The notes beneath the pieces were generated by a model that made no database searches, was not told the origin of the DNA, and saw only the letters and a program-made list of their open reading frames with translations. The translations under genes and the position numbers were made by a program. DNA of 40,901 nt from an uncultured Clostridia bacterium (GTDB taxonomy: Bacteria; Bacillota; Clostridia; Christensenellales; CAG-917): contig CALVTH010000013.1 of the NCBI GenBank assembly GCA_944360115.1, forward strand, positions 1 to 40,901, in the 5' to 3' direction. This document shows positions 9,027-38,362 of the stretch, piece by piece. Positions within the stretch are counted from its first letter, which is position 1. Every line of letters begins with the position of its first letter.

Positions 9027-9182
9027 TATAATCAAAACAGGTAAGGGTGGAAAGCGGAGCGCGATGTCTCGGGAGTTCGCGTCCGTCGGTTTGAGCACCC
9101 TTGTCCGCACGCCGATTCTTGCGGCGGCAAATCACGAGCATACGTCGGAGCGACGCGCACGTCGCCGTGCAATTTCTCCGAC
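9027..9182 (+). promoter_or_regulatory. TATAAT promoter element and structured ~180-nt leader upstream of the 9219 gene
   Basis: A perfect -10 hexamer TATAAT lies at 9027-9032 (the -35 region is only a T-run). The transcribed leader holds AAGGGTG (9043-9049) pairing with CACCCTT (9096-9102). It also holds GTCGGAG (9144-9150) pairing with CTCCGAC (9176-9182), enclosing a perfect CGACG-CGCA-CGTCG hairpin (9151-9164). This nested arrangement ends 22 nt before the ribosome-binding site. It could be a cis-regulatory RNA or a small RNA; I do not recognise a known class. Confidence 0.4.
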
Positions 9183-9218
9183 GCAAAGTAACCGAAAACT
9201 TTACGAGTGAGGTGCATT

Positions 9219-10007
9219 ATGGACAGGAAAAACAACATCAACGATTTTGTGGTGACCTATCTCGCTTGCTGGGCGGACGCAATGAAAAACCTCGGCGACT
9301 CAGAGACGCGGAAGAAACTGTACAGAAGCGGCAGTTACGACGGCGACGACGGTTGCAAAGGCTGGACGGAATTCCATCTCAAAAAGATTCTGTATCCTCT
9401 CGCCGAGAAACTCGGCTACAAGGACGCCCCCTGCGCCGAGGAGGATTGCGGGACGGGCAAAGGCAGGGAGGAAAAATGCGGCTACAACCGCACCTGGTCC
9501 CGCGACAGCTACAAGGTGGACCTCTCGCTGTACAATTTCGACTCGGCGTATTGCCGCAGCATCGACTATGCAATCGACCACACGGGTATCAGCTTCAAGG
9601 TGGAACGGAAGGGCGGCAAACTCGAAGTCGCGCGCGGCGGCTGGCTCAACGCTTTTGTCAAAATGTTGCCCTTGAACTGCGCAAAAGCGCGCGTAATCAT
9701 CGGATACGACGCTTTCGGCGAAGGCGACTGGGAGCAGAAGAGAGAGTATCTGCTCGGGTTGCTCGGCAACCGTGTCGTCAGGGAAACCCTCGCCGAAGCC
9801 CCCATCTTGCTCATTCTCGCGCCTTCGTGCGAATTCATCGACGGAGAGAAAGACAAGAACAATCTTTTCTTCAGAATAAAACTCATCACCAAGGTGCAGA
9901 GCGGTTGGGAGGTGGGCGACCTCGACGAATTGCTGGCGGGCAACTCCGAATTCCTGCGTATGCGCAAGGAGATGTGCAACATCTTCGCCGATATTAGGAA
10001 CGACTGA
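9219..10007 (+). CDS. Hypothetical protein, possible PD-(D/E)XK nuclease-like fold
   Basis: The protein has 262 residues, is soluble, and has no signal peptide or membrane segment. I do not recognise it with confidence. The central part reads SYKVDLSLYN (98-106), YAIDHTG (117-123), a Trp at 142, Lys148, and then ARVIIGYDAF (157-166). This order (beta strand with Asp, [E/D]H[E/T] strand, W-x(n)-K helix, hydrophobic strand ending IGY) resembles PD-(D/E)XK-fold proteins of restriction-endonuclease type, but the usual EHE is DHT, so activity is doubtful. The N-terminus has a WTEFHLKKILYPLAEKLGY helix and a Cys-rich loop (C72, C77, C87). ATG at 9219 follows GTGAGG; it is probably monocistronic, with a hairpin at 10073. 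Confidence 0.6.
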   Translation: MDRKNNINDFVVTYLACWADAMKNLGDSETRKKLYRSGSYDGDDGCKGWTEFHLKKILYPLAEKLGYKDAPCAEEDCGTGKGREEKCGYNRTWSRDSYKVDLSLYNFDSAYCRSIDYAIDHTGISFKVERKGGKLEVARGGWLNAFVKMLPLNCAKARVIIGYDAFGEGDWEQKREYLLGLLGNRVVRETLAEAPILLILAPSCEFIDGEKDKNNLFFRIKLITKVQSGWEVGDLDELLAGNSEFLRMRKEMCNIFADIRND

Positions 10008-10072
10008 ACCCCGCCCGCGCTTCGAGCGCGTCGGGGACCGTCGTAGTGTGCGAAAGTGCCGTGACACGATTG

Positions 10073-10102
10073 CGGCGCGCCGCGTGTAGCGGCGCGCCGT
10101 TT
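10073..10102 (+). terminator. Hairpin terminator after the 9219 gene
   Basis: CGGCGCGCCG at 10073-10082 pairs perfectly with the same palindromic sequence at 10090-10099, leaving a 7-nt loop. It is followed by TTTCCGTTTCC, a weak T-tract. Position 66 bp after the stop supports a termination role. Confidence 0.5.
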
Positions 10103-10288
10103 CCGTTTCCGGATTTTCCGGCGGCAAATATAGACGCAAATGCAAAAGGCTGTTTACCGCGCCCGCGGCAACAAACAAAATTATATAAATGTATGGTTAT
10201 CTTGTGCAATGTGACCGAGTGACGGATATTATTGTTGCAAAAATGTAAAAATAAGAGTGTTAAGAGGGGGCTTTGTGGGGCGGCGAGG

Positions 10289-10317
10289 TTGACAAACAAC
10301 GCGATTGGCGGTATGCT
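10289..10317 (+). promoter_or_regulatory. Sigma-A type promoter for the ArsR-family gene
   Basis: TTGACA (10289-10294), a 17-bp spacer and TATGCT (10312-10317) form a near-consensus promoter, giving a leader of about 65 nt. The AT-rich 10180-10260 segment lies just upstream. Confidence 0.7.
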
Positions 10318-10390
10318 GATTATGCTGTACGACGACTTTCCGTCGGCGGACGGCGACTGAATACAATCAGCAAAAGTGACGGTAGGTTTT

Positions 10391-10699
10391 ATGGAAGAAA
10401 AGAAATTTATTTCGGTGTGCAAAGCGCTCGGCGACAACAACAGAATGAAGATTGTCAAGATGTTGAGAAAAGGCAGTCTTTGTGCCAACGGCATTCTCAA
10501 GAGCCTCGATTGCTCTCAACCCACGCTCAGTTATCACATGAAGTTGCTGTGCGAAAGCGGTATCGTCAAGGCGAGGAAGCAAGGGCTGTGGACATTCTAC
10601 ACGCTCGACCGCAAAGTCGCGGACAATTTCGCCGCGCACATCGTCAACATCTGCACTCCACTTGACGAGATCAAGAAGGAAGACGGCGTTGAAAAATGA
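10391..10699 (+). CDS. ArsR-family winged-helix transcriptional regulator
   Basis: The protein has 102 residues, the length of a minimal ArsR/SmtB repressor. The winged helix reads LGDNNRMKIVKMLRKGSLCA (13-32), then the recognition helix SQPTLSYHMKLLCESGIV (42-59) and the wing KARKQGLWTFYTLD. The family ELCVCDL metal loop is here SLCANGIL, with only one Cys (Cys31), plus Cys10, Cys41 and Cys54. Metal sensing is possible but not established. ATG at 10391 is chosen over the in-frame GTG at 10376 because GGTAGG precedes it. A near-consensus promoter lies ~75 bp upstream and two hairpins follow, so it is transcribed alone. The regulated gene is not evident. Confidence 0.85.
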   Translation: MEEKKFISVCKALGDNNRMKIVKMLRKGSLCANGILKSLDCSQPTLSYHMKLLCESGIVKARKQGLWTFYTLDRKVADNFAAHIVNICTPLDEIKKEDGVEK

Positions 10700-10706
10700 C
10701 AGTACG

Positions 10707-10729
10707 GACGCTCCTGTCGGGGCGTCTTT
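10707..10729 (+). terminator. Hairpin after the ArsR-family gene
   Basis: GACGCTCC (10707-10714) pairs with GGGGCGTC (10719-10726), with one G-T pair and a 4-nt loop, and is followed by TTTG. The T-tract is short, so this is a weak terminator on its own. Confidence 0.45.
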
Positions 10730-10754
10730 GCAAAAGGCGTAGCGGTACGCCGTG

Positions 10755-10778
10755 ACGCGCGGGCGACCGCGCGTTTTT
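10755..10778 (+). terminator. Intrinsic terminator upstream of the BaiN-like gene
   Basis: ACGCGCGG (10755-10762) pairs perfectly with CCGCGCGT (10767-10774) around a GCGA (GNRA-type) tetraloop, and the 3' arm runs into TTTTT. It lies only 19 bp before the GTG start of the next gene, so it may instead act as an attenuator for that gene. Confidence 0.6.
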
Positions 10779-10796
10779 GCAAGAAAGGGGGTAGTC

Positions 10797-11954
10797 GTGC
10801 GATACGATGTTGCGATAATCGGCGGCGGCGCCGCGGGACTGTATCTCGCGTCGCGTCTGAGTTCGCTCGGAGTTGCCGTAATCGAGAGCGGCGCCCGCGT
10901 GGGCAGGAAGCTGCTCGCCACGGGCAACGGCAGGTGCAACCTGACTTTTTTGCGCCCCCTTCGCAATGACGATTACAACTGCAGGGAAGCGGCCGTATTC
11001 GTCGGGCGGATTTCACCCGACGACACGCTGGCGCATTTCAGTGCGCTGGGTTTGCGCACGCGCACCGAGGAAGACAGGGTCTATCCCTATTCGCTGACTG
11101 CGGCGAGCGTGCTCGACTGTCTGCGCCGCGGCGCAGCCCGCGCGGGCGCGGACATATTTACGGGCGCGCGCGTTATCGCCGTGCGCAAAGAGAGCGGCGG
11201 TTTCGCCGTCGACTCCCTTTCCGCGGACGGAACGGCGAAAACGGTGTCTGCCGCTTCCGTCGTGCTTGCCACGGGCTCGGACGCGGGTTTCGGCGAGGAC
11301 AGTCTTTCCCTTTATACGGCTCTCGGGCACACCCGCAGGCAATTTTCGCCCTCGCTCGTGCCGCTCCTTACCGACAAGGAGAGCGTGAAAGGATTGTCGG
11401 GCGTGCGCGTGCGGTGCGCGCTCCGCGCGGGTGACGCCGTCGAGGAAGGCGAAATCCTCTTCCGCGACAACGGGCTGAGCGGCATTGCCGCGATGAATGT
11501 ATCCGCGCTTTACGCGCGCGGAAAACTCGGGCGCGGCGACGCGTTGTTCATTGATTTCGTGCCCGAAATCCCGCGGGAAATTCTCGAGGAAGAGTTTGCG
11601 GCAAGCAATCTCACGGTCGGCGAACTGCTCGGCGGATACTTCCACACCAGAGTCGCGGAGCGTATCGCGGCGCGCGCGGGGCAGACCTTGTCCGATGTTC
11701 CCGACGGAAAGGCTCTCGCCGCCGCCGTAAAGAGTTACGCCCTGACGCTGGAAGGTGTGCGCGGCAAGGACGCGGCGCAGGTGATGTCCGGCGGGTTGCC
11801 GCTTTCCGAATTCGACGACGACCTTATGTCCGTGTTGTGCGCGGGCGCGTACGCCGTCGGCGAAGCCCTCGATGTGGACGGAGTGTGCGGCGGATTCAAT
11901 CTCCAATGGGCGTGGACGAGCGCGGAGGTCGTCGCACGCGCGCTTTTGCGCTGA
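10797..11954 (+). CDS. NAD(P)/FAD-dependent oxidoreductase, HI0933/YhiN (BaiN-like) family
   Basis: The protein has 385 residues, the family's usual size. The N-terminal FAD-binding motif is YDVAIIGGGAAGLYLASRL, followed by the family hallmark GRKLLATGNGRCNLT. The C-terminus carries MSGGLPLSEFDDDLMS and GEALDVDGVCGGFNLQWAW, matching the conserved GE-x-LDVDG-x-GGYN-x-Q-x-A end. Members are flavoproteins; one has been linked to bile-acid A-ring reduction, but for most the substrate is unknown, so no specific reaction is claimed. GTG at 10797 is chosen because GAAAGGGGG lies 6-12 bases upstream and the FAD motif starts 3 residues in. A GNRA-loop hairpin sits directly before it. It is flanked by regulators but not obviously linked to them. 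Confidence 0.85.
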   Translation: MRYDVAIIGGGAAGLYLASRLSSLGVAVIESGARVGRKLLATGNGRCNLTFLRPLRNDDYNCREAAVFVGRISPDDTLAHFSALGLRTRTEEDRVYPYSLTAASVLDCLRRGAARAGADIFTGARVIAVRKESGGFAVDSLSADGTAKTVSAASVVLATGSDAGFGEDSLSLYTALGHTRRQFSPSLVPLLTDKESVKGLSGVRVRCALRAGDAVEEGEILFRDNGLSGIAAMNVSALYARGKLGRGDALFIDFVPEIPREILEEEFAASNLTVGELLGGYFHTRVAERIAARAGQTLSDVPDGKALAAAVKSYALTLEGVRGKDAAQVMSGGLPLSEFDDDLMSVLCAGAYAVGEALDVDGVCGGFNLQWAWTSAEVVARALLR

Positions 11955-12004
11955 TTTATGCGGTGTTCGCTCGGTTTTTTGAGCCCGTCCGCACGGTTTT
12001 TCCG

Positions 12005-12026
12005 CCGCGGAAGCGCGGGCGTTTTT
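12005..12026 (+). terminator. Hairpin with T-run after the flavoprotein gene
   Basis: CCGCG (12005-12009), loop GAAG, CGCGG (12014-12018), then GCGTTTTT. The stem is short but GC-only, and the T-run is good. Confidence 0.45.
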
Positions 12027-12062
12027 CTGCCGATAGGTAAATGTGTTAACATTTTTCGTCAA

Positions 12063-12096
12063 ATCGGTTGAAAGACCGATGTTTCAATGTTATACT
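12063..12096 (+). promoter_or_regulatory. MarR gene promoter with overlapping inverted-repeat operator
   Basis: TTGAAA (12068-12073), a 17-bp spacer and TATACT (12091-12096) form a promoter. ATCGGT (12063-12068) and ACCGAT (12075-12080) form a perfect inverted repeat over the -35. TTGAAA (12068-12073) and TTTCAA (12082-12087) form a second one. Such repeats over the promoter suggest autorepression by the MarR protein encoded immediately downstream. The predicted transcription start falls at or next to the ATG at 12103. Confidence 0.6.
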
Positions 12097-12102
12097 AATT
12101 TC

Positions 12103-12531
12103 ATGAATATCAAGAGTGCAGCCTATTTCTTTTCGGCGTACAGAAAATTGTTCCGTTCCTACACCGACTTCCAGCTCAACGCGTTGGAAGGTTATGACCT
12201 TTCGCCAAACGAAATCGTTGTGCTGAGCAGTATCGAGACCCTGCCTACGGCGAGCGAAATCGCCTACGCTTCCGATGTCAGCAAAGCGCTCGTTTCGCGC
12301 AGCGTGAAACTGCTCAAGGACAAGAATTACATCACCGCGACGGTGTCGTCGTCGGACAAACGCGAGCAGGAACTTGCCCTCACCGAGGAGGGCAGGCATG
12401 TTGCCGAACTCATAGACGAAGCCAACCGCCGCTTTTTCGCCACGGCATTTGCCAACTTCGAGGACAACGAAAAAGAGGCGCTGAGAATGTTGCTCGGCAT
12501 GATGTTGCGCAATCTCAATATAGGTAATTGA
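12103..12531 (+). CDS. MarR-family transcriptional regulator
   Basis: The protein has 142 residues, a typical MarR length. N-terminal helices carry YRKLFRSYTDFQLNALEGYD. The winged helix follows with LSPNEIVVLSSIE, then the recognition helix VSKALVSRSVKLLKDKNYI (59-77) and the wing with SSSDKREQELALTEEG (the conserved D-x-R of MarR proteins). A dimerisation helix ends the protein. ATG at 12103 is where the family fold begins, but no Shine-Dalgarno sequence precedes it and the -10 ends only 6 bp upstream, so the mRNA may be leaderless; the in-frame ATG at 12079 would lie inside the promoter. The stop is followed 1 bp later by the peptidase gene, its probable co-transcribed target. Confidence 0.88.
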   Translation: MNIKSAAYFFSAYRKLFRSYTDFQLNALEGYDLSPNEIVVLSSIETLPTASEIAYASDVSKALVSRSVKLLKDKNYITATVSSSDKREQELALTEEGRHVAELIDEANRRFFATAFANFEDNEKEALRMLLGMMLRNLNIGN

Positions 12532-12532
12532 T

Positions 12533-13744
12533 ATGAAAACGGCTTTTTCCGACGAAACTTACCGCGCGGCGGCGGAGACTGCGGCGCAGGAGATAAAGGC
12601 GGCGGTTGAGGAATTTCCCGCCCGTCTGCCTGCTTCGCTCTCCGAACTCAATGCGTCCGACCGCCTGAAAGAGGAACTCGGCAAGTGCGCCGACGAAGTG
12701 CGCGCCGAGCAGTTTGCGGTCGCTCCCGCGGCGGCCACCGGTTGGGTGTATTTCACGGCGGTGTGCGCCATTATGGCGTATGTCACCTACTTTTTCGTGT
12801 CCTTCCTTTCCGTCGTGTTCGTCATAGCGGCGGCAATACCTCTGGTGGTGCAGGGGCTGTTGTGCCTGCCCGCGTTTGACGGAATGTATGTGACCCGCAC
12901 TTCGCAGAATGTCACGGCGACCAAAAAGTGTGCGGGCGACCGCAAGAGGCGCGTCGTCATCGTCGCTCACGCCGACGCCGCGCCCGTTTCTCCGCTCAAA
13001 TCCGCTCTCGGCGGTAAAGCCGTCGCCGCGGTGTGCGCCGTTGCCGTCATAGGACTGCTGTATGTGCTTGCCGCGGACATAGCGCGCTGGGCGTATATGG
13101 GCAGTATGGGCACGGGACTCGTCGAAGGCGCTTATCTGTATGCGGGACTCGTCGGAATAGTTTTCGCTCCCGCGTGGGTGGCGTGTTTCTTCGTGTTCGG
13201 CAGCGGAAAGGCTTCCGACGGCGCAAGCGACAACCTGAGCGGTTGCTACACGGCGCTCGCTCTCATGCGCCTGCTCGACAGCAACGGAGTCGTCTTCGAC
13301 GGCACCGAAATTTCCGTCGTAATCACGGGCGCCGAGGAGTGCGGTATGCGCGGCGCGGCGGCGTGGTGCAAGGTCCGCGCCGACGAGGACAAGACCGACA
13401 CGGTGGCGATTGCCCTCGACACGCTTAGAGAGGACGACAAATTCGCCGTGTCGCTGAGGGAACTCAACGGGTTTGTGAGAACGGACGCCGCCCCCGCCGA
13501 GGAATTGACCGACGCCGCCGGCGCGGCGGGAGTCATCTGCGAGAAACGCGGCTGTACCTTCGGCGCGACGGACGCCGTTGCGTTTACAAGGGCGGGTTAC
13601 CGTGCGGCAAGCCTCACGGCTTCGGATATGTCTCCCGAGTACATCCACACCCCGCGCGACAACGCCGACGGCGTGAACGCCAAGGCAATCGAGGACGCGC
13701 TCCGCGTGCTCGTCGAATACCTCGACCGCGCCGACAACGCCTGA
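12533..13744 (+). CDS. Membrane-associated M28-family (zinc) aminopeptidase-like protein
   Basis: The protein has 403 residues. Zinc-ligand motifs of M28 peptidases appear in order: AHADAA (His146, Asp148), GASDNLSGC (bridging Asp233), GAEECGMRG (Glu268 general base, Glu269 ligand), ALDTL (Asp296) and YIHTPRDNAD with the final His. Unlike most M28 enzymes, the metal site is interrupted by hydrophobic segments. Two membrane helices (about 73-111) lie before the first motif and two more (about 162-180, 202-222) lie between the HxD and GASDN motifs. The active site would then face the cytoplasm or the membrane surface. There is no signal peptide. The substrate is unknown. It starts 1 bp after the MarR stop, so it is co-transcribed with that regulator, and ends at a bidirectional terminator. 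Confidence 0.8.
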   Translation: MKTAFSDETYRAAAETAAQEIKAAVEEFPARLPASLSELNASDRLKEELGKCADEVRAEQFAVAPAAATGWVYFTAVCAIMAYVTYFFVSFLSVVFVIAAAIPLVVQGLLCLPAFDGMYVTRTSQNVTATKKCAGDRKRRVVIVAHADAAPVSPLKSALGGKAVAAVCAVAVIGLLYVLAADIARWAYMGSMGTGLVEGAYLYAGLVGIVFAPAWVACFFVFGSGKASDGASDNLSGCYTALALMRLLDSNGVVFDGTEISVVITGAEECGMRGAAAWCKVRADEDKTDTVAIALDTLREDDKFAVSLRELNGFVRTDAAPAEELTDAAGAAGVICEKRGCTFGATDAVAFTRAGYRAASLTASDMSPEYIHTPRDNADGVNAKAIEDALRVLVEYLDRADNA

Positions 13745-13819
13745 CGGCGTGCCGAAAGCCGTCGCGGTCCGCCCGCAATATGCGAGCCGCAGGGCGGTGC
13801 CCACAATGAAATGAAACGA

Positions 13820-13846
13820 AAAAACCGAGGAAATTCCTCGGTTTTT
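13820..13846. terminator. Bidirectional intrinsic terminator
   Basis: AAAAACCGAGG (13820-13830) pairs with CCTCGGTTTTT (13836-13846) around a 5-nt loop. The stem has A-runs on one side and T-runs on the other, so it works in both directions. It sits between the convergent peptidase and dnaI-type genes. Confidence 0.85.
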
Positions 13847-13880
13847 GTTTTTATTGCACTCCGTGCGGTATGCGGGCGGC

Positions 13881-14813
13881 TCAGCGTTTTGGCACGAATG
13901 TGCGCAGGTCTTCGCCTTCGAGGTTGAGGACGAGGGCCGTCCTGCGGTCGCTGAGACGCGAGAATATGCGTTCGTTGTAGGTGTTCAGTATTCTTTCCAC
14001 CGACAGGTTGGTGGTTATCACCGTCGACAGTTTGCGGCGCGAGCGTTCCTCGAGCACGGTGAGGAGATATTCGCAGGTCACATTTCTGTAGCGCGGCTCC
14101 GTGCCGAGGTCGTCAATCACCAGCATATCTGCCGACATCACATCGTCGAGGACGGAGTCGCACTCGGGATAACGGGAGGTGTGCGCCTTCACCATAAGTT
14201 TGTTGAGTTCGTTCGCCGAAAGGAAGAGAGCGGCGTAATCGCGGCGTATCATCTGCCTCGCCATTGCTTCGGCGAGCACGGTTTTGCCCGTGCCCGTCGC
14301 GCCCGTCAGCAGGACTATGTGCTTGCCGACTGCGGGATACTTGTCGGTGTAGGTGCGCATAAGCCCGTATACGCTGCGGAGCAGTTCGGTCTGACCCGTG
14401 GCGGGGAGGACGGAAGAGTCGAAGTCGTCGAGTGAAAATCCCTCGACGGACACGCCGCACTCTTTTTCGAGCAGCGAGACGAAGATGTCCTTTATGCAAT
14501 CGCAGGGCGCGCCGTCGTGAATACCCGTGCCGCCACAGGAGGGACAGGGCGCGTCGGGCAGGAAATCGTTTTCGGAATAGCCGTGACGGGCGAGGGTGGC
14601 GAGATATTCCTCGCGCAGATCGTCGACGCGGCCGTCGCTCGCGCGGTTGCGCGACCGAGGAGCGCCGTAGACCGCAGACACATAGTTCGACCGCGCTTCG
14701 GCGACATCGGGGAAGGCCAGCACGACATCGCGCAACTCGGCTTTTTCCGCGGCGGTGCGCTCGGATTCGCGGCTTTTCACGCGGAGCGCTTCTCTCAGGA
14801 TTCTGTCTCTCAT
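13881..14813 (-). CDS. dnaI: DnaC/DnaI-like helicase loader ATPase
   Basis: The protein has 310 residues, as in Bacillus DnaI. It loads the replicative helicase during primosome assembly. After an N-terminal helical region there is a zinc-binding cluster CPSCGG...CDC (Cys90, Cys93, Cys104, Cys106), then the AAA+ core: Walker A GATGTGKT (171-178), Walker B MLVIDDLGTE (230-239), a sensor-1-like TTN, and a C-terminal FSRLSDR arginine-finger segment. Its start overlaps the stop of the dnaD-like gene by 4 bp (ATGA), so the two primosome proteins are translated together. This pairing is the normal Bacillota arrangement. It ends in the shared terminator at 13820. Confidence 0.9.
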   Translation of the reverse strand: MRDRILREALRVKSRESERTAAEKAELRDVVLAFPDVAEARSNYVSAVYGAPRSRNRASDGRVDDLREEYLATLARHGYSENDFLPDAPCPSCGGTGIHDGAPCDCIKDIFVSLLEKECGVSVEGFSLDDFDSSVLPATGQTELLRSVYGLMRTYTDKYPAVGKHIVLLTGATGTGKTVLAEAMARQMIRRDYAALFLSANELNKLMVKAHTSRYPECDSVLDDVMSADMLVIDDLGTEPRYRNVTCEYLLTVLEERSRRKLSTVITTNLSVERILNTYNERIFSRLSDRRTALVLNLEGEDLRTFVPKR

Positions 14814-16264
14814 AGGTCGGTGTCCTTAAGGCTTTCTATGCTGGTTATAACCGCTTTGAACTGTTCGGCGGTGTATTCGCGCTCGTCGAAATTCTTGGAA
14901 GTGTTGAGTTTGCCGTCGCCCGTCTGCGCTTCCGCGCCGCGCTTTCTGGCTTCTGCGAGCGTGCGCACGCCCGCGGCTTTCCAGTCGGACAGGATACGGC
15001 TGATTGCGGAGAGGGGATAGGGCTTGCCGGCGGCGAGTTCGGCGGCGTAAAGGATGATGTCGTCGTCGAATCCCCACACGGCGCTCCAGGTGCGGTAGTG
15101 GTCGCGGTCGGCGGCGGTGACGGCGCGCGTGCGCCCCGTCGCTTCGACGACCGCCTTTATGCGCTCGTCCTGTCTGACCTGATTGGCGATGAAATCGTCG
15201 ATTGCTTCGACGGTGAGCAGACCTTGCGCGAAAAAGGTGTTCACAATGCCGTTCATACCCTCTAAAGTGCGGATACCGCTGATGAAGCAGTAATGCGCCA
15301 CGGTGATGAGGGCGTCGTTGGAGAACCCTTTCGCCGTCCACGGTACGGTGTAAACCTCGATGATGTGGTCGAGGGATTCGTAGTAGACGCCGAGATTCTT
15401 GTTGATTTTGACGGCGAGGTCGCGCAGTCTTTCGGCGTTGCGGATATACTCCTCGATTTCCTCGGGAGAGAACACCGACATACGGTAAAATTCGTCCAGA
15501 CGGGCGTCGAGCCGTTTGAATGTCTTGCCGCTTTTCAGCGATTTCGCGGCGGCGAGGACAGCGGGCAGGGTGTATCCCCAGCTGCGCGTCCATTTCAGCA
15601 ACATCTGTTTTTCTTCGAGTTCGGCGCCGCCCTTTCTGCCGAGCGCGGCAAGCACGGCGCGCATATCTTCCGTCTGCGCTTCGTACTGCGACAGTTTGCT
15701 TTCCACATCGGCGACGGTGCGCACCCCGTCCTCCGCCCAGTTCTTCGCCACGGCGAGTATGTAGGGATAGCGGACGGAAGCGCCTTTGAGGTCTATGCAA
15801 TACTGCACTATCATCAGCATGGCGTCCTGTTCGACCTTGCTGGAGTCCAGGAAAGAGTAGTATTCGTTGAACTCGTTGGGGGTGAGCATGTGCTCGGGAA
15901 AGAGCCGCTGAAGTTCGCGGTTGAAATCCTGCCACTTCTCCGCCTTGTATTTCTTGGGCGGTTGCATTGCGCGCTTGAGGGAGAGATAGCGCACCTCGAG
16001 GGGGTGGCGGCGAACTATGCGGCACAGACCCGCGTCCTCGAATTCGGTGTAGACGGCGAGCAATTCCTTTTCGTCCACGCCGAGGGCGGTGCACATGCTC
16101 TCGAGGGAATTGTCGTTTTGGGGAGCCGTGCACAGGTACAGCCCGTAGATGTAGATTTTGATTTGTTTTTCGTCGCAATGGGGAAGGTGCTCGTTGACGA
16201 AAAGGTTGTCGACGAGGGTGAAACTCTCCATCAGGAAATCGCTGGAAAACGCGGCGAAACTCAA
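14810..16264 (-). CDS. dnaD: DnaD-domain replication initiation protein
   Basis: The protein has 484 residues, long for DnaD (about 230) and close to DnaB-type loaders. The N-terminal winged helix begins FTLVDNLFVNEHLPHCDEKQ and IKIYIYGLYLC, as in DnaD proteins. Two or more copies of the DnaD C-terminal domain follow, each ending in an aromatic-x-W-x-x-x-GV-x-T motif: AKNWAEDGVRT and SDWKAAGVRT, with a further helical repeat around GFSNDALITVAHYCFISGIR. The start is TTG at 16264, supported by GGGAGGACAAT directly before it; the next ATG lies 11 codons in with no such site. The protein helps remodel origin DNA and recruit the loader encoded by the overlapping downstream gene. Confidence 0.85.
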   Translation of the reverse strand: MSFAAFSSDFLMESFTLVDNLFVNEHLPHCDEKQIKIYIYGLYLCTAPQNDNSLESMCTALGVDEKELLAVYTEFEDAGLCRIVRRHPLEVRYLSLKRAMQPPKKYKAEKWQDFNRELQRLFPEHMLTPNEFNEYYSFLDSSKVEQDAMLMIVQYCIDLKGASVRYPYILAVAKNWAEDGVRTVADVESKLSQYEAQTEDMRAVLAALGRKGGAELEEKQMLLKWTRSWGYTLPAVLAAAKSLKSGKTFKRLDARLDEFYRMSVFSPEEIEEYIRNAERLRDLAVKINKNLGVYYESLDHIIEVYTVPWTAKGFSNDALITVAHYCFISGIRTLEGMNGIVNTFFAQGLLTVEAIDDFIANQVRQDERIKAVVEATGRTRAVTAADRDHYRTWSAVWGFDDDIILYAAELAAGKPYPLSAISRILSDWKAAGVRTLAEARKRGAEAQTGDGKLNTSKNFDEREYTAEQFKAVITSIESLKDTDL

Positions 16265-31501: not shown

Positions 31502-31504
31502 TCT

Positions 31505-33205
31505 ATGAACACCGGCATTTCCTGGCTCAGCATCAAAACGCTGCTGCGGCTCGAATTGCGTTCCAGGTTCGGCTCCCGCGTGGAGACCCCCGTCAAGACG
31601 CACATCGGACGCGCGGTCAACATTCTCTTCACCCTTATCGTTTACGGTATTCTCGTGCTCGGTATCTACTACCTTGCCGATATGTTCATAGTCCGCTCCG
31701 AACTGCGGTACGAGTTCCTCGTGTTCTCGACCGTGTTCACAATGGTGATTGCCACGGCGGTAGCGACGGGCAATGTCGTCAAGAATCTGTACATGAGCGG
31801 CGACAACGAGCTTTTGCTCCGTTTCCCCGTCAACGGCGCGGAAATCCTGATTGCAAAGTCGATATACTGCTTCATACACAATCTCATCATCAACGCTTTG
31901 CTGATGCTGCCTTTCTACATCGTTTTCGGTGTGGTGACCAAGGCGGGGGCGGGATATTATTTCGCCAGCATAGGCGTCATGGTGCTCGCGGTGTTGTTGC
32001 CCTATTTCATCGCCAACCTCGTCGCCATTCCCGTGATGATGCTCACCAACTTCGTCAAGAACCAGTTCCTGCTGGTGCTCATCATCCTCATCGCGCTCAT
32101 CTGCGCGGGCTTCATCCTCTATATGACCGCCCTCAAGGGTATTCTCAATTACCTCGGCGAGGAGAATGTCAGCCTGTTCTCGGGCAGCATGATAATGCGC
32201 TACAGGGAAGTGGCGGCAAAGTGCTATCCGCTCAAGTGGTACGCCACTTTGCTCGCTGGCACTCCCTACGGCTTCTCCAGCGCGGAAGTGGGGCTTTCCT
32301 TCCTCTACATCTTCCTGATGACGGCGGCGGTCGGCGTGGCGGCGTATTTGGTCACCGTGAAGTTCTACTATAAGACGATATTGAACGGTATCGAGACCGA
32401 GAAGGTGTCCTTCCACAGAAAGACGCCCAACACCTGCCGCACGGTATTCGGCACGCTGTTGCACCGCGAATTCTATCTCATACTCCGTTCGTTCAACTAT
32501 TCCTTCCAGTATCTGGCAATGGCGGTTGCGGCGCCCGTTATGGTGTACTACTGCAACGACCTTGCCGCCACCATGGGCAAGGACAGCGTCGGCGCGGCAA
32601 TCGTGCCCGGGCTTACCCTCATGGTCATCATCATCTTCGTGGCGATAATAGTGTCGTTCGCCTCCACATCCATTTCGCGTGAGGGCAACGCCTTCTATCA
32701 CACGAAGATAATTCCCGTAAGTTACACCGTACAGGTGTCCGTCAAACTCTTCCTTTATGCCATAGTCGCCACGGCTTCCGTGGTGCTGTCGTGCATAATC
32801 GTCGCCGCGGCGTTCGGCACGGAAGAGGCGGGCAACCTGCTCAGCCCGCTGGATATAGGCTGCATTTTCGCCATATCCGAGATGACGGTGCTTTCGCTGA
32901 CCTGCCTTGCGATATGGGCGGATGTCAGGTCGCCGATATTCAATGTCGTCGGCGACGGCGAACTCGTCAGCGCCAACAAGAACCTCGCCGTGTCGTTGCT
33001 GGTCGGCATCTTCGTGGCTGTGGTCTACGGTGTGATAGCCATGATACTCGGCTTCCTGCCCATAGAAATCGGCGGTTTCAGCGTCGTCGACGGGCTGGGA
33101 GATGTCTATCTCATACTCTCTATGGTATCCCTCGTCATTCTCGGCATAAGCCTCACCATGCTGTATGTCAATCTCGACAAGCGTTACCAGAAGATTGCGC
33201 CCTGA
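31505..33205 (+). CDS. ABC-2 type exporter permease
   Basis: The protein has 566 residues with about 12 membrane helices arranged as two six-helix halves joined by a soluble loop around 290-320 (ETEKVSFHRKTPNTCRTVFG). The conserved start HIGRAVNILFTLIVYGILVL and the SGDNELLLRFPVNGAEILIA stretch (a coupling-helix region) fit the large ABC-2 permeases of Bacillota in which one polypeptide carries both half-transporters. It pairs with the ATPase gene 3 bp upstream. The substrate is not predictable from sequence. The stop is 24 bp before the surface-protein gene, with GAGAGG in between. Confidence 0.85.
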   Translation: MNTGISWLSIKTLLRLELRSRFGSRVETPVKTHIGRAVNILFTLIVYGILVLGIYYLADMFIVRSELRYEFLVFSTVFTMVIATAVATGNVVKNLYMSGDNELLLRFPVNGAEILIAKSIYCFIHNLIINALLMLPFYIVFGVVTKAGAGYYFASIGVMVLAVLLPYFIANLVAIPVMMLTNFVKNQFLLVLIILIALICAGFILYMTALKGILNYLGEENVSLFSGSMIMRYREVAAKCYPLKWYATLLAGTPYGFSSAEVGLSFLYIFLMTAAVGVAAYLVTVKFYYKTILNGIETEKVSFHRKTPNTCRTVFGTLLHREFYLILRSFNYSFQYLAMAVAAPVMVYYCNDLAATMGKDSVGAAIVPGLTLMVIIIFVAIIVSFASTSISREGNAFYHTKIIPVSYTVQVSVKLFLYAIVATASVVLSCIIVAAAFGTEEAGNLLSPLDIGCIFAISEMTVLSLTCLAIWADVRSPIFNVVGDGELVSANKNLAVSLLVGIFVAVVYGVIAMILGFLPIEIGGFSVVDGLGDVYLILSMVSLVILGISLTMLYVNLDKRYQKIAP

Positions 33206-33229
33206 CGCATTGTCCGAGAGGTATTCCAA

Positions 33230-35941
33230 ATGAAGAAAATAATGATAGGCGTGCTCGTCATCATTCCGCTTATAGTCGTGCTGACTATCGGTCTGGTCAC
33301 GAACTTCATTTCCGTCCGCGCCTACATTTCCGTCGAGAGCGTCATCCTGGAAAACAACAGCGTCGAACTGGAAATAACACATTCCCCCGACGACTATTAT
33401 TCCGTCGACGACCTCGTCGGCATTATGGGCGTTTCCGTTTCACCCGCTCACGCCACCAATCCCGCCGTCGAAATGACCCTGTCGGGCATTACGCCGCTTG
33501 ACTCCGAGATAAAAGACGCCGACGGCGACGGCAGAGACGATGTCACGGAAGAGTATTATGTCGAATTTCTGAAATCGGACAAGGCGTCGCACACCGACAT
33601 CATCGGCACGGGCGAGGGCGACGGGGGCTATCTCAAAGTGTCCGCGTATTGCGCCTTCGACATCACCGTCACCGCCGAAGGGTCGGTGTCGGCGAGATGT
33701 TCCGTGCGCGTCACGGGCGCGCTGTCCGCAATAAAGATTTCGGGCGCGTCCACGGTGGAATTGGGCGACAGCATACTGCTCGCGCCCGTTTTCACTCCCA
33801 TTGACGCCGTCGTGCGCTCGGCAGTCTGGTCCAGCAACGCCGAGACAGTCGCCGTCGTCGACCCCAACGGAGTGGTCACGGGCATAAGCGAGGGCAGCGC
33901 GGAGATTTCCGTCTCCGTCACCCGCGAGGACGGCGAGGAGGTTTCCGCCGCCGTCACCGTCGAGGTCGTGCGCGGCGCGACCGTGTTCGGCAGCGAGGTC
34001 TACACGCACCTGCGCACCGTTTCGCTCGCGGCTCTCGGACTTTCCGAGCAATCTTCCGTCACCCCGATAAGCAACTGCACCGTTTCGGACGGCAACATCG
34101 TCATAGACGCTTCGGCGACCGAAGCCAGTTTCCGTGTGGGCGACGACCCCGTGACGATGTATGTCTGCGACGAGGACGAACTTGTCGTCAAAGGCTCGGA
34201 GTATTTCGCCGCCGAAGGTTATGTGCTCGAAAGAGACGGTATGCCGTTGTGGCTCACCGTCGACTGGAAGTCCGACCTCAGGAGCGATCCCGCGCCCGCC
34301 GTCGCGTCGTGGTCGTCAAACGCCGAAGCCGTTGCGACAGTGTCCGCCGACGGGTATGTCCGCGGGCTTGCCAACGGCCCCGTCACGATCACCGCGGTCA
34401 CCGAAAACGGCGGCTCCGTGTCCATTGATCTCACCGTCGCCCGCAAGGTTGCCGTGCTTCAACTCGAGGATACCGAAGCGTCGATGCAACTCGGTCTTGC
34501 CCGTCAAACCGTTGTGGCCACGGGTAAATACGACGGTCAGAACATTGTCGACAACACCTATACCGTCGTCGACAACACCTATACCATCGATATCAGATAT
34601 CCCGTCGCCGACGAAGGGGAGAGCGCGGAAGAGTTCAATTCCGCCTTCCTGTTCTCCCTTGCGGTCGAGGGTATGGACGACGCGTCCGCGTACATCCGTT
34701 TCGACGGCAACGCCATTATTTTCGATTACGACAAAATCAAGGCGGACGGGGTTTTCTCCGAAAGGACCAAAGTCACCGTCACCGTCAGCGCGCGTTATCC
34801 CAAATACGACGACCCCGCGCTTTCCAAATATTCGACCGCTTCCTTCTCGTTCTATGTAATCGACGGTGTGCAGGTGTCGGACTACTCGCAACTCGAGACC
34901 GCGCTTACGGACGGGATTGACGCCGTGCTCGCCAATTCCGTTGCAGTCGAGGGCAATGCGACGATAAAATCCAAAGCCAGCCTCTACGGCAACGGCTACA
35001 CGGTTTATACCACGCAACTCGCGCAACTCGGCTCTCCCAATGACAAGAGCGTCGCAATCATCACCGTCATGGAAAGCAATACGGTCGTGTCCAATGTCAC
35101 GCTTCGAGCAAATCCCGTGCCCGAAGACGGGGTCATCAAGGCCGAGACCTATCAGCAGGGCTATTGCCTGCGCTTCAATCAGGGGCTTTGGGTCAACGAA
35201 CTCGTCGAGTATTGTATCCTCGAAAACGCCCGTACTGCGTTGTCCGCGACCGGCGGCAAAATCACCGTCGTCGGCTCCATAATCCGCAACACATCGGGCG
35301 GCGGTCTCTATATCAGGTGTTCCGCAAACGCCTTCACCGATCTCACTCTCCGCAACTGCATCCTGACCAACTGTCTCAGCCCGTCCAACTTCCAGTATCT
35401 GGCGAGCTACAACGGCACCGACGCGGGCGGCAATCCCTCCGTGCCCGAAGGCGCGCCCACCAAGACCACCCTCACGATAGAGGGATTCCTCGACGCCTAT
35501 TGCTGGTTCGATGTCCGCCAGGGGTCCTTCATCCCCGACGAAACCCTCAAGGACGCGCTGTCCTCCCAGGGCGGCACCGATGTCAATGTTTCGTACATCC
35601 AGGGACTGTTGCAGGACATCATCCTCTCTTCCGACTTCCTCGAAAGCTTCAGGTACCGCTACAACGACGGGGTCTATGTCCATGTCGCGTTTATGTCCAC
35701 GGGACTGACGGTGGAGAGCTTCCTCAACCGCGCCGGCAATTTCGTCAACGACGACAGCAGATTCCACCTCATAACCTCCGACAAATTCGGCAGCGACCTG
35801 CTGAAAATCCTGAGCGACATGGGGCTGTTGAAGTATCCGATGTATCTGTGGAGTTACGACAACACGGTGACCGACCTCACGCCCGCCAGCGTGTGCGTGG
35901 TCAACTCCCGCCTCATCGACCGCCTGCACTCCGAGGTGTAA
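33230..35941 (+). CDS. Surface protein with bacterial Ig-like (BIG2) domains and beta-helix region
   Basis: The protein has 903 residues. The N-terminus is a single membrane helix (KIMIGVLVIIPLIVVLTIGL), apparently an uncleaved anchor, so the rest is outside the cell. BIG2-type repeats follow: about 155-245 with VWSSNAETVAVVDPNGVVTG, and about 335-400 with ASWSSNAEAVATVSADGYVR, the S-x-x-x-VA-V-x-x-x-G-x-V-x-G pattern. Residues ~540-740 (YGNGYTVYTTQLAQ, NTVVSNVTLRANP, ENARTALSATGGKITVVGSI, IRNTSGGGLYIRCSANAF) look like a right-handed parallel beta-helix. The C-terminus has no LPXTG or second helix. It is the last gene of the ABC exporter unit. Adhesion or polysaccharide binding is a guess. 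Confidence 0.8.
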   Translation: MKKIMIGVLVIIPLIVVLTIGLVTNFISVRAYISVESVILENNSVELEITHSPDDYYSVDDLVGIMGVSVSPAHATNPAVEMTLSGITPLDSEIKDADGDGRDDVTEEYYVEFLKSDKASHTDIIGTGEGDGGYLKVSAYCAFDITVTAEGSVSARCSVRVTGALSAIKISGASTVELGDSILLAPVFTPIDAVVRSAVWSSNAETVAVVDPNGVVTGISEGSAEISVSVTREDGEEVSAAVTVEVVRGATVFGSEVYTHLRTVSLAALGLSEQSSVTPISNCTVSDGNIVIDASATEASFRVGDDPVTMYVCDEDELVVKGSEYFAAEGYVLERDGMPLWLTVDWKSDLRSDPAPAVASWSSNAEAVATVSADGYVRGLANGPVTITAVTENGGSVSIDLTVARKVAVLQLEDTEASMQLGLARQTVVATGKYDGQNIVDNTYTVVDNTYTIDIRYPVADEGESAEEFNSAFLFSLAVEGMDDASAYIRFDGNAIIFDYDKIKADGVFSERTKVTVTVSARYPKYDDPALSKYSTASFSFYVIDGVQVSDYSQLETALTDGIDAVLANSVAVEGNATIKSKASLYGNGYTVYTTQLAQLGSPNDKSVAIITVMESNTVVSNVTLRANPVPEDGVIKAETYQQGYCLRFNQGLWVNELVEYCILENARTALSATGGKITVVGSIIRNTSGGGLYIRCSANAFTDLTLRNCILTNCLSPSNFQYLASYNGTDAGGNPSVPEGAPTKTTLTIEGFLDAYCWFDVRQGSFIPDETLKDALSSQGGTDVNVSYIQGLLQDIILSSDFLESFRYRYNDGVYVHVAFMSTGLTVESFLNRAGNFVNDDSRFHLITSDKFGSDLLKILSDMGLLKYPMYLWSYDNTVTDLTPASVCVVNSRLIDRLHSEV
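34547..34588 (+). repeat. In-frame 21-bp tandem duplication within the Ig-like gene
   Basis: GTCGACAACACCTATACC at 34547-34564 recurs at 34568-34585, giving two 21-bp units that differ at one base, and encodes VDNTYTV followed by VDNTYTI. It is a recent-looking microduplication that keeps the frame. Confidence 0.85.
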
Positions 35942-36013
35942 CCGCCCGAAAACCGACGGACCGCACACCGCGGCAAAGCAAAAGGTGCAAGCCAATTAAG
36001 AGAAACCCAACGG

Positions 36014-36048
36014 AAAACCCGCTCGGAAAGAGCGGGTTTCTCTGGCGG
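36014..36048. repeat. 35-bp repeat, copy 1 (tRNA-end plus terminator hairpin)
   Basis: Identical to 36153-36187. It contains AAACCCGCTC (36015-36024), loop GGAAA, GAGCGGGTTT (36030-36039), a 10-bp stem, then CTCTGGCGG. On the minus strand the same hairpin follows a CCGCCA tRNA end and runs into TTTT, as a tRNA terminator would. On the plus strand it lies 73 bp after the Ig-like gene and could end that transcript. Confidence 0.8.
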
Positions 36049-36063
36049 AAGCGGTGGGATTCG
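36043..36063 (-). pseudogene. 3' end of a tRNA-Ser-like gene (fragment)
   Basis: On the minus strand these 21 bases read CGAATCCCACCGCTTCCGCCA: the end of a T-loop, T-stem 3' arm CCCAC, acceptor arm CGCTTCC, discriminator G and CCA. The G discriminator with this arm suits tRNA-Ser. The rest of the tRNA is absent: upstream bases (36064 on) do not form D or anticodon arms. It is followed by the hairpin repeat, as a real tRNA gene would be. It is probably a leftover of recombination or integration at a tRNA 3' end. Confidence 0.5.
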
Positions 36064-36152
36064 TAAGGAGCGAAGCGACGGAACAGCGATTGTTGCGCCG
36101 TTGCGCCAATCGCGTCAGCGACAGGTAAAGAATACCATCGCGCGCAAACAGT

Positions 36153-36187
36153 AAAACCCGCTCGGAAAGAGCGGGTTTCTCTGGCGG
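36153..36187. repeat. 35-bp repeat, copy 2
   Basis: An exact second copy of 36014-36048, 139 bp downstream. Sequence diverges immediately after the shared TGGCGG, so only the last six tRNA bases (CCGCCA on the minus strand) are shared. Between the copies is a hairpin CGATTG (36087-36092) / CAATCG (36107-36112). Confidence 0.8.
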
Positions 36188-36197
36188 CGAGCCGTCG

Positions 36198-36239
36198 CCT
36201 TTGTACGAACTTTTAATTCCTTTGTACGAACTTTGAATT
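36198..36239 (+). repeat. 21-bp tandem direct repeat upstream of pstS
   Basis: CCTTTGTACGAACTTTTAATT (36198-36218, one base over two helical turns) is followed at once by a copy with a single change (36219-36239). The motif TTTGTACGAACTTT thus appears twice on the same DNA face. It could be a regulator-binding array or a repeat remnant. Confidence 0.7.
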
Positions 36240-36276
36240 TTAGATAAAGTACGATGCCGAAGTAGTCAACAGAAAA

Positions 36277-36313
36277 GAATAATACGAGCTCGTTTTTAGA
36301 GTTCGTATTATTC
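36277..36313. repeat. Long AT-rich inverted repeat (15-bp stem)
   Basis: GAATAATACGAGCTC (36277-36291) pairs with GAGTTCGTATTATTC (36299-36313), fully complementary except one G-T pair, with loop GTTTTTA. There is no T-run on either side, so it is not a simple terminator. AT content contrasts sharply with the surroundings. It could be a mobile-element end, a cruciform site or a regulatory hairpin. Confidence 0.6.
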
Positions 36314-36376
36314 CCTAATGGCGGGGCGTCCCCTCGCCGCAGGGCGCGCCGAAGCGCGACGACATCGCGAGGTGTA

Positions 36377-36398
36377 AAAATTTGTCAATGACAATTTT
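36377..36398 (+). promoter_or_regulatory. Palindromic operator candidate upstream of pstS
   Basis: AAATTTGTCA (36378-36387) and TGACAATTTT (36389-36398) are inverted half-sites around a single A, with one mismatch. The core is TGTCAATGACA. It lies about 105-125 bp before the pstS ATG. I do not recognise the regulator; the sequence does not match a standard Pho box. A clear promoter for pstS was not found. Confidence 0.4.
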
Positions 36399-36500
36399 GT
36401 GAAAAAATCGGGGAAAATAAAAGACAAGTTGTTGCTATGTTGATCGTAGCGGTCGGATCGGCTTGCGGCAGCGAGCAGCGAGGACCGGGAGGAAAAAGAA

Positions 36501-37385
36501 ATGAAGAAATTTTGGACGATAGCCATTTGTGCAATGCTGCTCGGCGCAGTCGCTTTCGCGGCGGTCGGGTGCAACAAGGGTGCGGCTGACACCATCAATG
36601 TGTTCTCGCGCGAGGACGGCTCGGGCACGCGCTCCGCGTTCACCGAACTCACGGGCGTGTTGGTCGAAAACGAGGACGGCACCGAGACGGACATGACCTT
36701 CTCGGGCGCGAGCTTCCAGAACTCCACCAACGCCATCATGACCGCGGTAGCGCAGGACAAAAACGCCATCGGTTATGTCTCCTTCGGCTCGCTGAACGAC
36801 ACTGTCAAGGCAGTCGCCGTGAACGGAGTAGCTCCTTCCGTGGACACCATCAAGGACAAGAGCTACGAGCTGCAGCGCCCCTTCAACATCGCTTACAAGC
36901 AGTCTAACATCGACAGCAAGCCCTTGGCTGCCGACTTCCTCGGTTTCCTCGGCTCTGCCGAAGCGCAGGAGGTCATCGCCGCGGAGAAGTATATCGTCAC
37001 CGACGACAATGCTCCCGCCTATGCGAAAGGCTCCGACCTCACGGGCAGCATCACCATCGGAGGCTCCTCTTCCGTGAGCCCGCTCATGGAGAAGCTCATT
37101 GAGAAGTATTGCGCGCTCTCCGGCGTCGCGAAGAACAGCATCGAGCTGCAGACCATCGACTCCACCGCCGGCATGAACGGCGCCATAAGCGGCACCTTCG
37201 ACATCGGCATGGCGTCCAGGGATGTCAAGGACTCCGAGCTTTCGCAGGGCATCACCGCAGAGGTGCTCGCCTATGACGGCATCGCGGTCATCGTCCACAA
37301 CGACAACGCTGTCGAGGACCTTTCTATGGAGCAGATCCGTCAGATCTTCACCGGCGCGGTGCGCGAGTGGTCCGCCCTTGCATAA
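36501..37385 (+). CDS. pstS: Phosphate-binding lipoprotein PstS, circularly permuted
   Basis: The protein has 294 residues. It captures phosphate outside the cell and delivers it to PstCA. The signal peptide MKKFWTIAICAMLLGAVAFA ends in a lipobox with Cys24. The two lobes are in reversed order: the segment normally in the middle of PstS comes first (NVFSREDGSGTRSAFTELTG, 33-52, then NAIGYVSFGSLNDTVKAVAV), and the usual mature N-terminus comes last (ITIGGSSSVSPLMEKLIEKY from 184, DIGMASRDVKD, FTGAVREW at the end). All phosphate-contact segments are still present, so it should fold as a permuted protein. ATG at 36501 follows GGGAGGAAAAAG. First gene of the pst operon. Confidence 0.88.
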   Translation: MKKFWTIAICAMLLGAVAFAAVGCNKGAADTINVFSREDGSGTRSAFTELTGVLVENEDGTETDMTFSGASFQNSTNAIMTAVAQDKNAIGYVSFGSLNDTVKAVAVNGVAPSVDTIKDKSYELQRPFNIAYKQSNIDSKPLAADFLGFLGSAEAQEVIAAEKYIVTDDNAPAYAKGSDLTGSITIGGSSSVSPLMEKLIEKYCALSGVAKNSIELQTIDSTAGMNGAISGTFDIGMASRDVKDSELSQGITAEVLAYDGIAVIVHNDNAVEDLSMEQIRQIFTGAVREWSALA

Positions 37386-37397
37386 TTGATAAACGCA

Positions 37398-37473
37398 GGG
37401 TTTAAGCATTGTAAAAACCCATAAAAACACCGTATTTTGCCGAAACCGCGGGAGATCGCTTTTTCTCCCGCGG
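37398..37473 (+). promoter_or_regulatory. Two hairpins between pstS and pstC
   Basis: GGGTTT (37398-37403) pairs with AAACCC (37415-37420). CCGCGGGAGA (37446-37455) pairs perfectly over 10 bp with TCTCCCGCGG (37464-37473), loop 8 nt. Neither is followed by a T-run. They probably protect the pstS mRNA 3' end or limit read-through, giving more binding protein than transporter. Confidence 0.6.
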
Positions 37474-37495
37474 CGACGGCACGAAAGAGAGAGAG

Positions 37496-38362
37496 ATGAC
37501 ATTTTCGGCTTTCAAAGAGACCGCGATGAAGGTCGTATTCGCCGTCACGGCGGCGGTCTTCATCCTGTGCGTCATCGTGATCTGCGTCTTCATCTTCGCA
37601 AGGTCTGTCCCCGCGATAGGGGAGATCGGGTTGTTTGAATTTTTGTTCTCCACCGAGTGGGCACCGAACAACACCCCGGCGAGCTACGGCATAGGCACGA
37701 TGATCGTAGGCACGTGTTTCGTCACGGCGGGCGCGCTCGTCATAGGAGTCCCCATCGGGCTGCTCATGGCGGCGTTCATGGCAAGATATTGCCCCAAGCC
37801 CCTTTACAAGGTGATGAAGCCCATGACCAACATCCTTGCGGGCATCCCGTCCATCGTGTACGGCTATTTCGGCATGATGGTCATCGCGCCCCTCATCCGC
37901 GACAATTTCGGCGGCACGGGATACAGCATCCTCACCGCGTCCATAGTGCTGGGCATCATGATCCTGCCCACCGTCATCGGCGTGTCGGAGTCCGCGCTGC
38001 GCGCTCTGCCGAACACCTACTACGAGGGTGCTCTCGCGCTCGGCGCCACGCATGAACACGCCGTGTTCATGACGGAGTTCCCCGCAGCCAGATCCGGCAT
38101 CCTGACTTCCGTGGTGCTGGGGCTGGGGAGAGTGGTCGGCGAGACGATGGCTGTGGTCATGATCGTCGGCAACAGCACCGCGCTCCCCGACAGTCTGCTC
38201 GACGGCGTGCGCACCATGACTTCGCACATAGTGCTCGAGCTCGGTTACGCGACGGATCTTCACCGCGGCGCGCTCATCGCGACTGCGGCGGTGCTATTCG
38301 TCTTCATCCTGTTCATAAATCTGCTCATCGTGGCGATCCGCAGGAAAGGGAGGGCAAAATGA
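37496..38362 (+). CDS. pstC: Phosphate ABC transporter permease PstC
   Basis: The protein has 288 residues and six membrane helices. The permease signature [20 protein letters not shown] is followed by the coupling motif EGALALGATHEHAVFMTEFP and [19 protein letters not shown], as in PstC. It forms the membrane channel with PstA. The start ATG at 37496 has GAGAGAGAG upstream. Its stop overlaps the pstA start (ATGA). The first ACGT after the long ACGT-free interval lies in this gene (37712-37715). Confidence 0.95.
   Translation: MTFSAFKETAMKVVFAVTAAVFILCVIVICVFIFARSVPAIGEIGLFEFLFSTEWAPNNTPASYGIGTMIVGTCFVTAGALVIGVPIGLLMAAFMARYCPKPLYKVMKPMTNILAGIPSIVYGYFGMMVIAPLIRDNFGGTGYSILTASIVLGIMILPTVIGVSESALRALPNTYYEGALALGATHEHAVFMTEFPAARSGILTSVVLGLGRVVGETMAVVMIVGNSTALPDSLLDGVRTMTSHIVLELGYATDLHRGALIATAAVLFVFILFINLLIVAIRRKGRAK

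Follow-up and report, generated by a model that had tools for sequence, protein, structure and literature searches.

Avoidance of restriction sites, and the traces that lost restriction-modification systems leave in genomes, have been documented (Rusinov et al., 2015; PMC4687349). In Helicobacter pylori, depletion of the four-base word ACGT has been attributed largely to deamination, together with the methyltransferase M.Hpy99XI (PMC10423294). Control of a nuclease without methylation also exists: GajA of the Gabija system is a nucleotide-regulated, sequence-specific nickase (PMC8136825). Here, we describe the near-complete loss of ACGT from the genome of an uncultured Clostridia bacterium (designated G000), beginning with a window of 40,901 bases (the whole stretch of DNA analyzed; positions 1-40901 of contig C13) in which a 28.5-kb interval lacks the word altogether. 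ACGT is a palindrome, like the sites of type II restriction enzymes.

Counted by program, ACGT does not occur once in the 28,549 bases from 9163 to 37711; the last copy on the left lies at 9159-9162 and the next at 37712-37715, exactly where the original prediction from this DNA had placed them. That prediction had also put the expected number at about a hundred and had described the absence as abrupt and not an effect of composition. Indeed, 105.1 copies are expected from base composition, 130.3 from an order-1 Markov model, and 105.0 from an order-2 model, so that trinucleotide statistics do not predict the absence and composition is excluded as its cause. On either side, the recount gave the 42 copies reported for the left 9,162 bases (56.9 expected) and seven in the right 3,190 bases (10.4 expected), where several had been noticed. 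The view of the 28.5 kb as a distinct interval did not survive, since counts over the whole genome exclude a local feature of the window: the empty DNA is ordinary backbone, and it is the flanks, with their ACGT, that are exceptional.

The G000 assembly comprises 1,490,525 bases in 55 contigs and is approximately 95% complete; 1,484,640 readable bases were counted, which is the whole assembly apart from 2,971 bases and a further 2,914 masked as N. Other contigs were first sampled in 20 stretches, each of 20 kb; these held 83 copies of ACGT against 1,542 expected, with seven stretches free of the word, and over all readable bases the count was 466 against 5,736. The resulting ratio of 0.081 is the lowest among the 256 four-base words. 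Much of what remains is gathered in 38 clusters (at least four sites, with gaps of up to 2.5 kb) covering 110.9 kb, which hold 386 copies against 559 expected, leaving 80 against 5,198 outside (ratio 0.015); because the clusters were defined by ACGT itself, this contrast between inside and outside is partly built in. For the reversed word TGCA, clusters and the remaining DNA do not differ in this way (427/498 in clusters, 4,229/5,375 outside), and the 42 sites in the left 9 kb of the window are too many for the density outside clusters. Emptiness is thus the normal state of this genome, and the window flanks are two exceptional clusters.

The same loss was observed in a second species of the genus, G009, whose assembly is also approximately 95% complete. 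Across 10 genomes of the genus, using pairs of ACGT at most 30 bases apart as the measure, 50 pairs were found in G000 (control 494) and two in G009 (control 349), compared with 396-1,175 in the other eight (control 481-731), none of which is near zero. In the part of G009 that was read (444,482 readable bases), ACGT occurs 15 times against 1,209 expected, or 17 times against 1,220 when a further stretch of 4,079 bases is included. Its contig C14, which is block-wise collinear with positions 10391-35953 of the window, carries two copies in 24,079 bases (68.5 expected). In 125,873 bases from the other eight genomes, chosen around methyltransferase and rpoB matches and not at random, 314 copies were found against 461 expected, the lowest count being that of G006 (13/44.5). 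Because rpoB trees join G000 and G009 (support 0.999 for codons and 1.0 for protein, with G007 and G002 next) and none of the other eight genomes is near zero, the loss belongs to the branch leading to these two. Given that G009, with two pairs genome-wide, has almost no clusters, the barrier against ACGT may be intact in that species and may have lapsed in G000.

How the word disappeared can be followed in an alignment of the rpoB locus. Half or more of the other genomes have ACGT at 19 columns; the word is kept at none of the 19 in G000 and at none of 14 in G009. By comparison, columns with TGCA were kept at 17 of 19 and 8 of 12 positions, respectively. At four of 14 former ACGT sites the two sisters carry different replacements, and pressure on the word therefore probably continued after they separated. 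Gene calls came from a home-made script based on codon usage, and counts by codon phase in G000 refer to genes outside clusters. Every phase is depleted: A|CGT (3/1,742 in G000 and 0/546 in G009 vs. 37/149 in the other genomes), ACG|T (8/2,566 and 0/862 vs. 16/185), and NAC|GT (42/3,222 and 10/993 vs. 161/251). Noncoding DNA contains 26 copies against 876 expected in G000 outside clusters, and five against 168 in G009. Between divergent genes, once 50 bases had been trimmed from either side, the counts are 2/43.6 and 0/8.7. With all phases and divergent intergenic DNA emptied, avoidance acts on DNA irrespective of coding.

These observations suggest that ACGT was probably lost genome-wide through long selection by a type II restriction system, that the ACGT-bearing flanks were acquired, and that the system was lost or escaped assembly. 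A type II enzyme cutting ACGT would select against the word over a long time; the system would later have been lost, or would lie on an element missing from both the G000 and G009 assemblies, and the clusters would be DNA acquired from other genomes. As in restriction-site avoidance, the palindrome is rarer than lower-order Markov models predict (ratio 0.08 in the whole of G000, 0.015 outside clusters, and 0.012 in G009). The traces of lost systems described by Rusinov et al. (PMC4687349) are similar in that, in the portions of that study compared, a palindromic four-base word falls far below the Markov expectation, is depleted in close relatives as well, and has no cognate system in the assembly. 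They differ in that here only 1.2-1.5% of the expected sites are left, intergenic DNA and all phases are emptied, and ACGT-bearing clusters are sharply delimited; among the examples compared from that source, none concerns ACGT. Another sign of a lost system would be its presence in relatives; enzymes of family PF00145, of unassigned specificity, occur in G002, G003, G004, and G006, all of which keep ACGT. A literature search of partial coverage returned no report of ACGT loss in this group. Avoidance and lost-system traces are known, but it is unusual for a loss to be this complete, and to recur, with no methylase; the loss is known in kind and extreme in degree.

The original prediction had proposed looking for an ACGT methyltransferase or endonuclease gene, and none was identified. 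Five Pfam methyltransferase families were searched in the 10 genomes of the genus. Matches to PF00145 were confined to G002, G003, G004, and G006; PF01555 in G000, G001, G003, and G005; PF02086 in G002; PF02384 in G000, G003, G004, and G005; and PF07669, above the cut-off, in G003, G004, G005, and G006. The PF01555 match of G000 is a type III methyltransferase beside a ResIII protein and an integrase, its PF02384 match fits MTS, PrmA, and other small methyltransferase families better, and its other matches resemble RNA or protein methyltransferases. In G009 there is only a short PF07669 match below the cut-off, in a 664-aa ORF that, judged by eye, resembles the PrmC-like ORF of G000. Neither G000 nor what was read of G009 contains a fragment recognized by a local cytosine-5 profile, and among the families seen there was no match labeled as an ACGT endonuclease. 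The type III system of G000, on contig C20, was rejected as the agent: it sits beside the integrase within an ACGT-bearing cluster, and the sites of type III systems are generally not avoided, according to the part of the survey consulted (PMC4687349). PADLOC was run on hand-picked G000 ORFs, including ten AT-rich ones, and gave TmtA, UzuA, and PDC-S14. All of the defense-related ORFs found, namely these, the type III methyltransferase, and ResIII with the integrase, lie in ACGT-bearing DNA, and none therefore bears the mark of a long resident. With a phosphorothioate (Dnd) system in mind, ORFs carrying the motif SGG.DS were listed for G000 and for what was read of G009; judged by eye, all of them look like members of known housekeeping families and none looks like DndC. 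A search for CRISPR spacers with which to trace phages gave no array, just one short tandem repeat. Separately, an AT-rich segment (L046:13754-16471) encodes a pair of neighboring ThiF-family proteins together with a RadC-like protein and contains no ACGT.

Near-zero ACGT recurs sporadically in the order. Among 297 genomes, compared by raw pair counts uncorrected for composition, eight have at most four ACGT pairs (G070, G130, G197, G209, G218, G237, G256, and G304). G070, G197, and G218 belong to a small-genome family in which low counts are common; G304 is near zero while its genus mates have 847-2,068 pairs. Furthermore, of 80 rpoB loci from other Bacillota, 77 have at least 10 expected copies, and one of these is null (L236, 0/77.9). 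This locus (CANRHD010000001.1) derives from the rabbit-associated uncultured Clostridia genome Lapin-022__bin52, designated G043, which is unrelated to G000 and whose ACGT count covers 23.5 kb; CGCG is also scarce at this locus (4/81). G043 has four PF00145 matches, one of them in an 813-aa ORF whose C-terminal region resembles the neighboring ORF. Of eight ACGT-null genomes examined, two (G043 and G237) carry PF00145 cytosine-5 methyltransferases and six (G000, G009, G130, G209, G256, and G304) do not. Lack of PF00145 is no marker of null genomes, because ACGT-normal relatives (G112, G207, and G227) also lack it, as does the partly depleted G066. The endonuclease candidates of the G043 locus were discarded: nothing in G000 or in what was read of G009 matches them, and comparison with Pfam, NCBIfam, PADLOC, and PDB gave no match from which a specificity could be assigned. 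The cytosine-5 methyltransferases of G237 were likewise set aside as a common ACGT enzyme, as they share 28-42% identity with those of G043 and no flanking endonuclease candidate.

Several observations weigh against a restriction system as the agent. Neither the G000 assembly nor that of G009 yields a cognate candidate in the five families, no ACGT-specific enzyme has been shown in the genus, and chance absence of one system from both assemblies is not very likely; an element missing from both is possible, for which a plasmid would be a natural reason. Genes for tRNA are not clearly depleted: ACGT occurs in four of 39 tRNA and tmRNA genes of G000 (6.6 sites expected; one of the four lies inside a cluster) and in one of 15 tRNA genes in the read part of G009 (1.4 expected), and a tRNA-Glu sequence containing GACGTC is identical in both sisters. 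Structural constraint can explain this retention, although the residual sites argue against an unprotected, constantly active ACGT nuclease at present. For rRNA, five of six motifs gave no match and 23S_b gave three isolated ones, with no rRNA operon in the stretches read. Finally, three of the aligned sites, all in phase 1, changed to ACAT, which replaces Val with Ile, and the Thr codon ACA before T is raised in G000 (0.197 vs. 19/169 of non-ACG codons in the other genomes), as deamination predicts.

Deamination is the process invoked for H. pylori: a 5-methylcytosine methyltransferase would have made ACGT hypermutable, and its decay to ATGT or ACAT would have erased the word. The precedent concerns the same word at a similar density, with approximately 53 copies per Mb in hpEastAsia in the data consulted (PMC10423294), compared with approximately 58 per Mb for G000 outside its clusters and 34 per Mb in what was read of G009; that source also links M.Hpy99XI with a skew to ATGT and ACAT, and 15 of the 19 aligned sites in G000 have become one of these two words. 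The several PF00145 enzymes of G043 and of G237 and the rise of ACA before T also fit this process. The skew is nevertheless uninformative in the NAC|GT phase, to which 15 of the 19 sites belong and in which ATGT is the sole synonymous exit, and the two coding phase-2 sites of the alignment turned into CCGT, TCGT, or ACGC. In A|CGT, both products of deamination would change Arg, so this phase should resist, yet no phase of G000 is emptier. The share of Arg after A in G009 (7.54%) does not fall below that in the other genomes (7.33%), although it is lower in G000 (5.83%), and Cys after A is raised in both (1.65% in G000 and 1.25% in G009 vs. 0.83%). Nor does G009 have an excess of ACA before T (81/862 vs. 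19/169). In H. pylori, a cytosine-5 methyltransferase is present and deamination dominates (PMC10423294); here, by contrast, no PF00145 enzyme was found in G000 or G009, and the informative phases of G009 are free of deamination bias. We consider deamination quite unlikely as the cause and conclude that selection on ACGT dominates, while deamination may contribute in G000. Of the two causes raised in the original prediction, restriction-type selection on the palindrome therefore stands as the best reading, whereas a methylation-driven mutational process finds no support in G009 and mixed support in G000. Selection at the level of RNA, for example by a ribonuclease toxin cutting ACGU, would accord with the ACGT kept in tRNA genes, as structured RNA might be spared, but the same retention is expected from structural constraint, and trimmed divergent intergenic DNA, which such selection should have left alone, is equally empty. 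It is therefore rejected as scarcely credible.

A nuclease without a methyltransferase, silent until phage attack, would instead leave the host to erase its own sites in place of methylating them. Near-total loss with no candidate in five methyltransferase families fits this idea, as do the six of eight null genomes without a PF00145 enzyme (in G130, G209, G256, and G304, methyltransferase absence refers to PF00145 alone) and the few residual sites, including the tRNA-Glu GACGTC, which a silent enzyme would tolerate but an unprotected, constitutive one would not. Nucleotide-silenced, sequence-specific nickases do exist, and an enzyme working like GajA would explain sequence-specific pressure without a methyltransferase; the resemblance is one of working principle only, and the specificity of GajA differs (PMC8136825). 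No such nuclease was identified among the hand-picked G000 ORFs covered by PADLOC, and the defense ORFs found sit in ACGT-bearing DNA, which leaves this explanation unlikely. Its extension to the order, in which methylase-free conditional ACGT nucleases are repeatedly acquired and hosts become immune by deleting the word from their own genomes, is rather improbable too; were it true, the ACGT patches of G000 would be a dated record of the DNA let in once this guard was gone. As for an artifact, in which foreign contigs were added to an ACGT-poor genome during binning or assembly, several clusters do fill small contigs (e.g., C50 and C55). However, both boundaries in the window lie inside one contig, the right one inside a single gene, and the empty backbone is present in two species; an artifact, itself very unlikely, would at most reduce the number of clusters and leave the genome-wide loss unaffected.

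If restriction caused the loss, each ACGT cluster would flag a recent arrival, providing a marker of gene transfer that requires no donor sequence and would serve uncultured bacteria. The near-absence of ACGT from two sister genomes with no methyltransferase, together with near-zero counts in scattered relatives, also raises the question of whether a host can live alongside a site-specific nuclease if its sites are erased and not methylated, or whether such systems reside on elements that assemblies miss.

Both flanks of the window are likely foreign and from different donors, because the word profile of neither fits the backbone (Table 1). The left cluster, which carries genes for carbohydrate enzymes, has GATC 0/20.7, CATG 1/16.0, and AGCT 1/16.2 (found/expected), differing from the genome averages of 0.24, 0.59, and 0.56. 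In the right cluster, which lies in a likely phosphate-transport operon, GATC (16/20.6) and CATG (26/28.4) are near normal and GGCC is absent (0/17.9). A protein search with the family 95 glycoside hydrolase gave nearest relatives at 98% and 81% identity, followed by 57%. G009 has a relative of the 649-aa ORF downstream of it (57.7% identity across 619 residues) that contains no ACGT, compared with 12 copies in G000. Between the clusters, the Pfam names of the backbone genes include phosphoglycerate kinase, a Dus family protein, and a sodium/hydrogen exchanger family protein, among others. The substrate-binding protein before the right boundary is likely PstS, an assignment based on the operon.

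Table 1. Features of the window and defense-related ORFs elsewhere in G000 (counts of ACGT given as found/expected where two numbers appear).
Feature	Position	Strand	Evidence and ACGT content
Left ACGT-bearing cluster, likely foreign	1..9162		ACGT 42/56.9
Glycoside hydrolase family 95 protein	796..2991	+	PF22124, E 1.3e-108; 7 ACGT
649-aa ORF without Pfam match	3451..5400	+	12 ACGT
Glycoside hydrolase family 35 protein	5414..7180	+	PF01301, E 1.4e-114; 10 ACGT
DUF4874/DUF4832 protein, last gene before left boundary	7457..8986	-	PF16173, E 4.5e-27; PF16116, E 2.4e-11
ACGT-free backbone	9163..37711		0 ACGT vs. 105.0 expected; chromosomal genes by Pfam
ORF without Pfam match, first right of left boundary	9207..10007	+	0 ACGT
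PBP_like_2 substrate-binding protein, likely PstS	36501..37385	+	PF12849, E 3.2e-28; ACGT-free
Transport permease	37496..38362	+	PF00528, E 4.2e-21; right boundary (first ACGT 37712) inside gene
Right ACGT-bearing cluster in likely phosphate-transport operon	37712..40901		ACGT 7/10.4
Second transport permease	38359..39294	+	PF00528, E 2.1e-20; 2 ACGT
ABC transporter ATPase	39204..40097	+	PF00005, E 2e-33; 3 ACGT
Defense-related G000 ORFs	L062:1189-5699, L002:15002-15871, L024:14501-15409, L052:414-5492		PADLOC/type III

Other clusters of G000 have palindrome profiles different from that of the left cluster, which suggests several donors. One cluster boundary falls inside a single giant gene: a frame that runs for 7,275 codons without a stop and is still open where the contig ends (L020:4071-20000 with L031; G000 C8:24071-45895) contains 59 copies of ACGT that start only approximately 7.5 kb into it. 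Other words are depleted in the genus as well. Depletion is strong across all of it for GGCC (0.11 in G000, 0.05 in G009, and 0.15 in the loci of the other eight genomes) and for CTAG (0.16, 0.04, and 0.29, respectively); PF00145 enzymes are absent from six of the 10 genomes. GATC is depleted in G000 (0.24), G002 (5/52.5), and G007 (1/20.2), but its level is normal in G009 (0.93) and close to normal in most of the other genomes, making it a second word with a patchy history.

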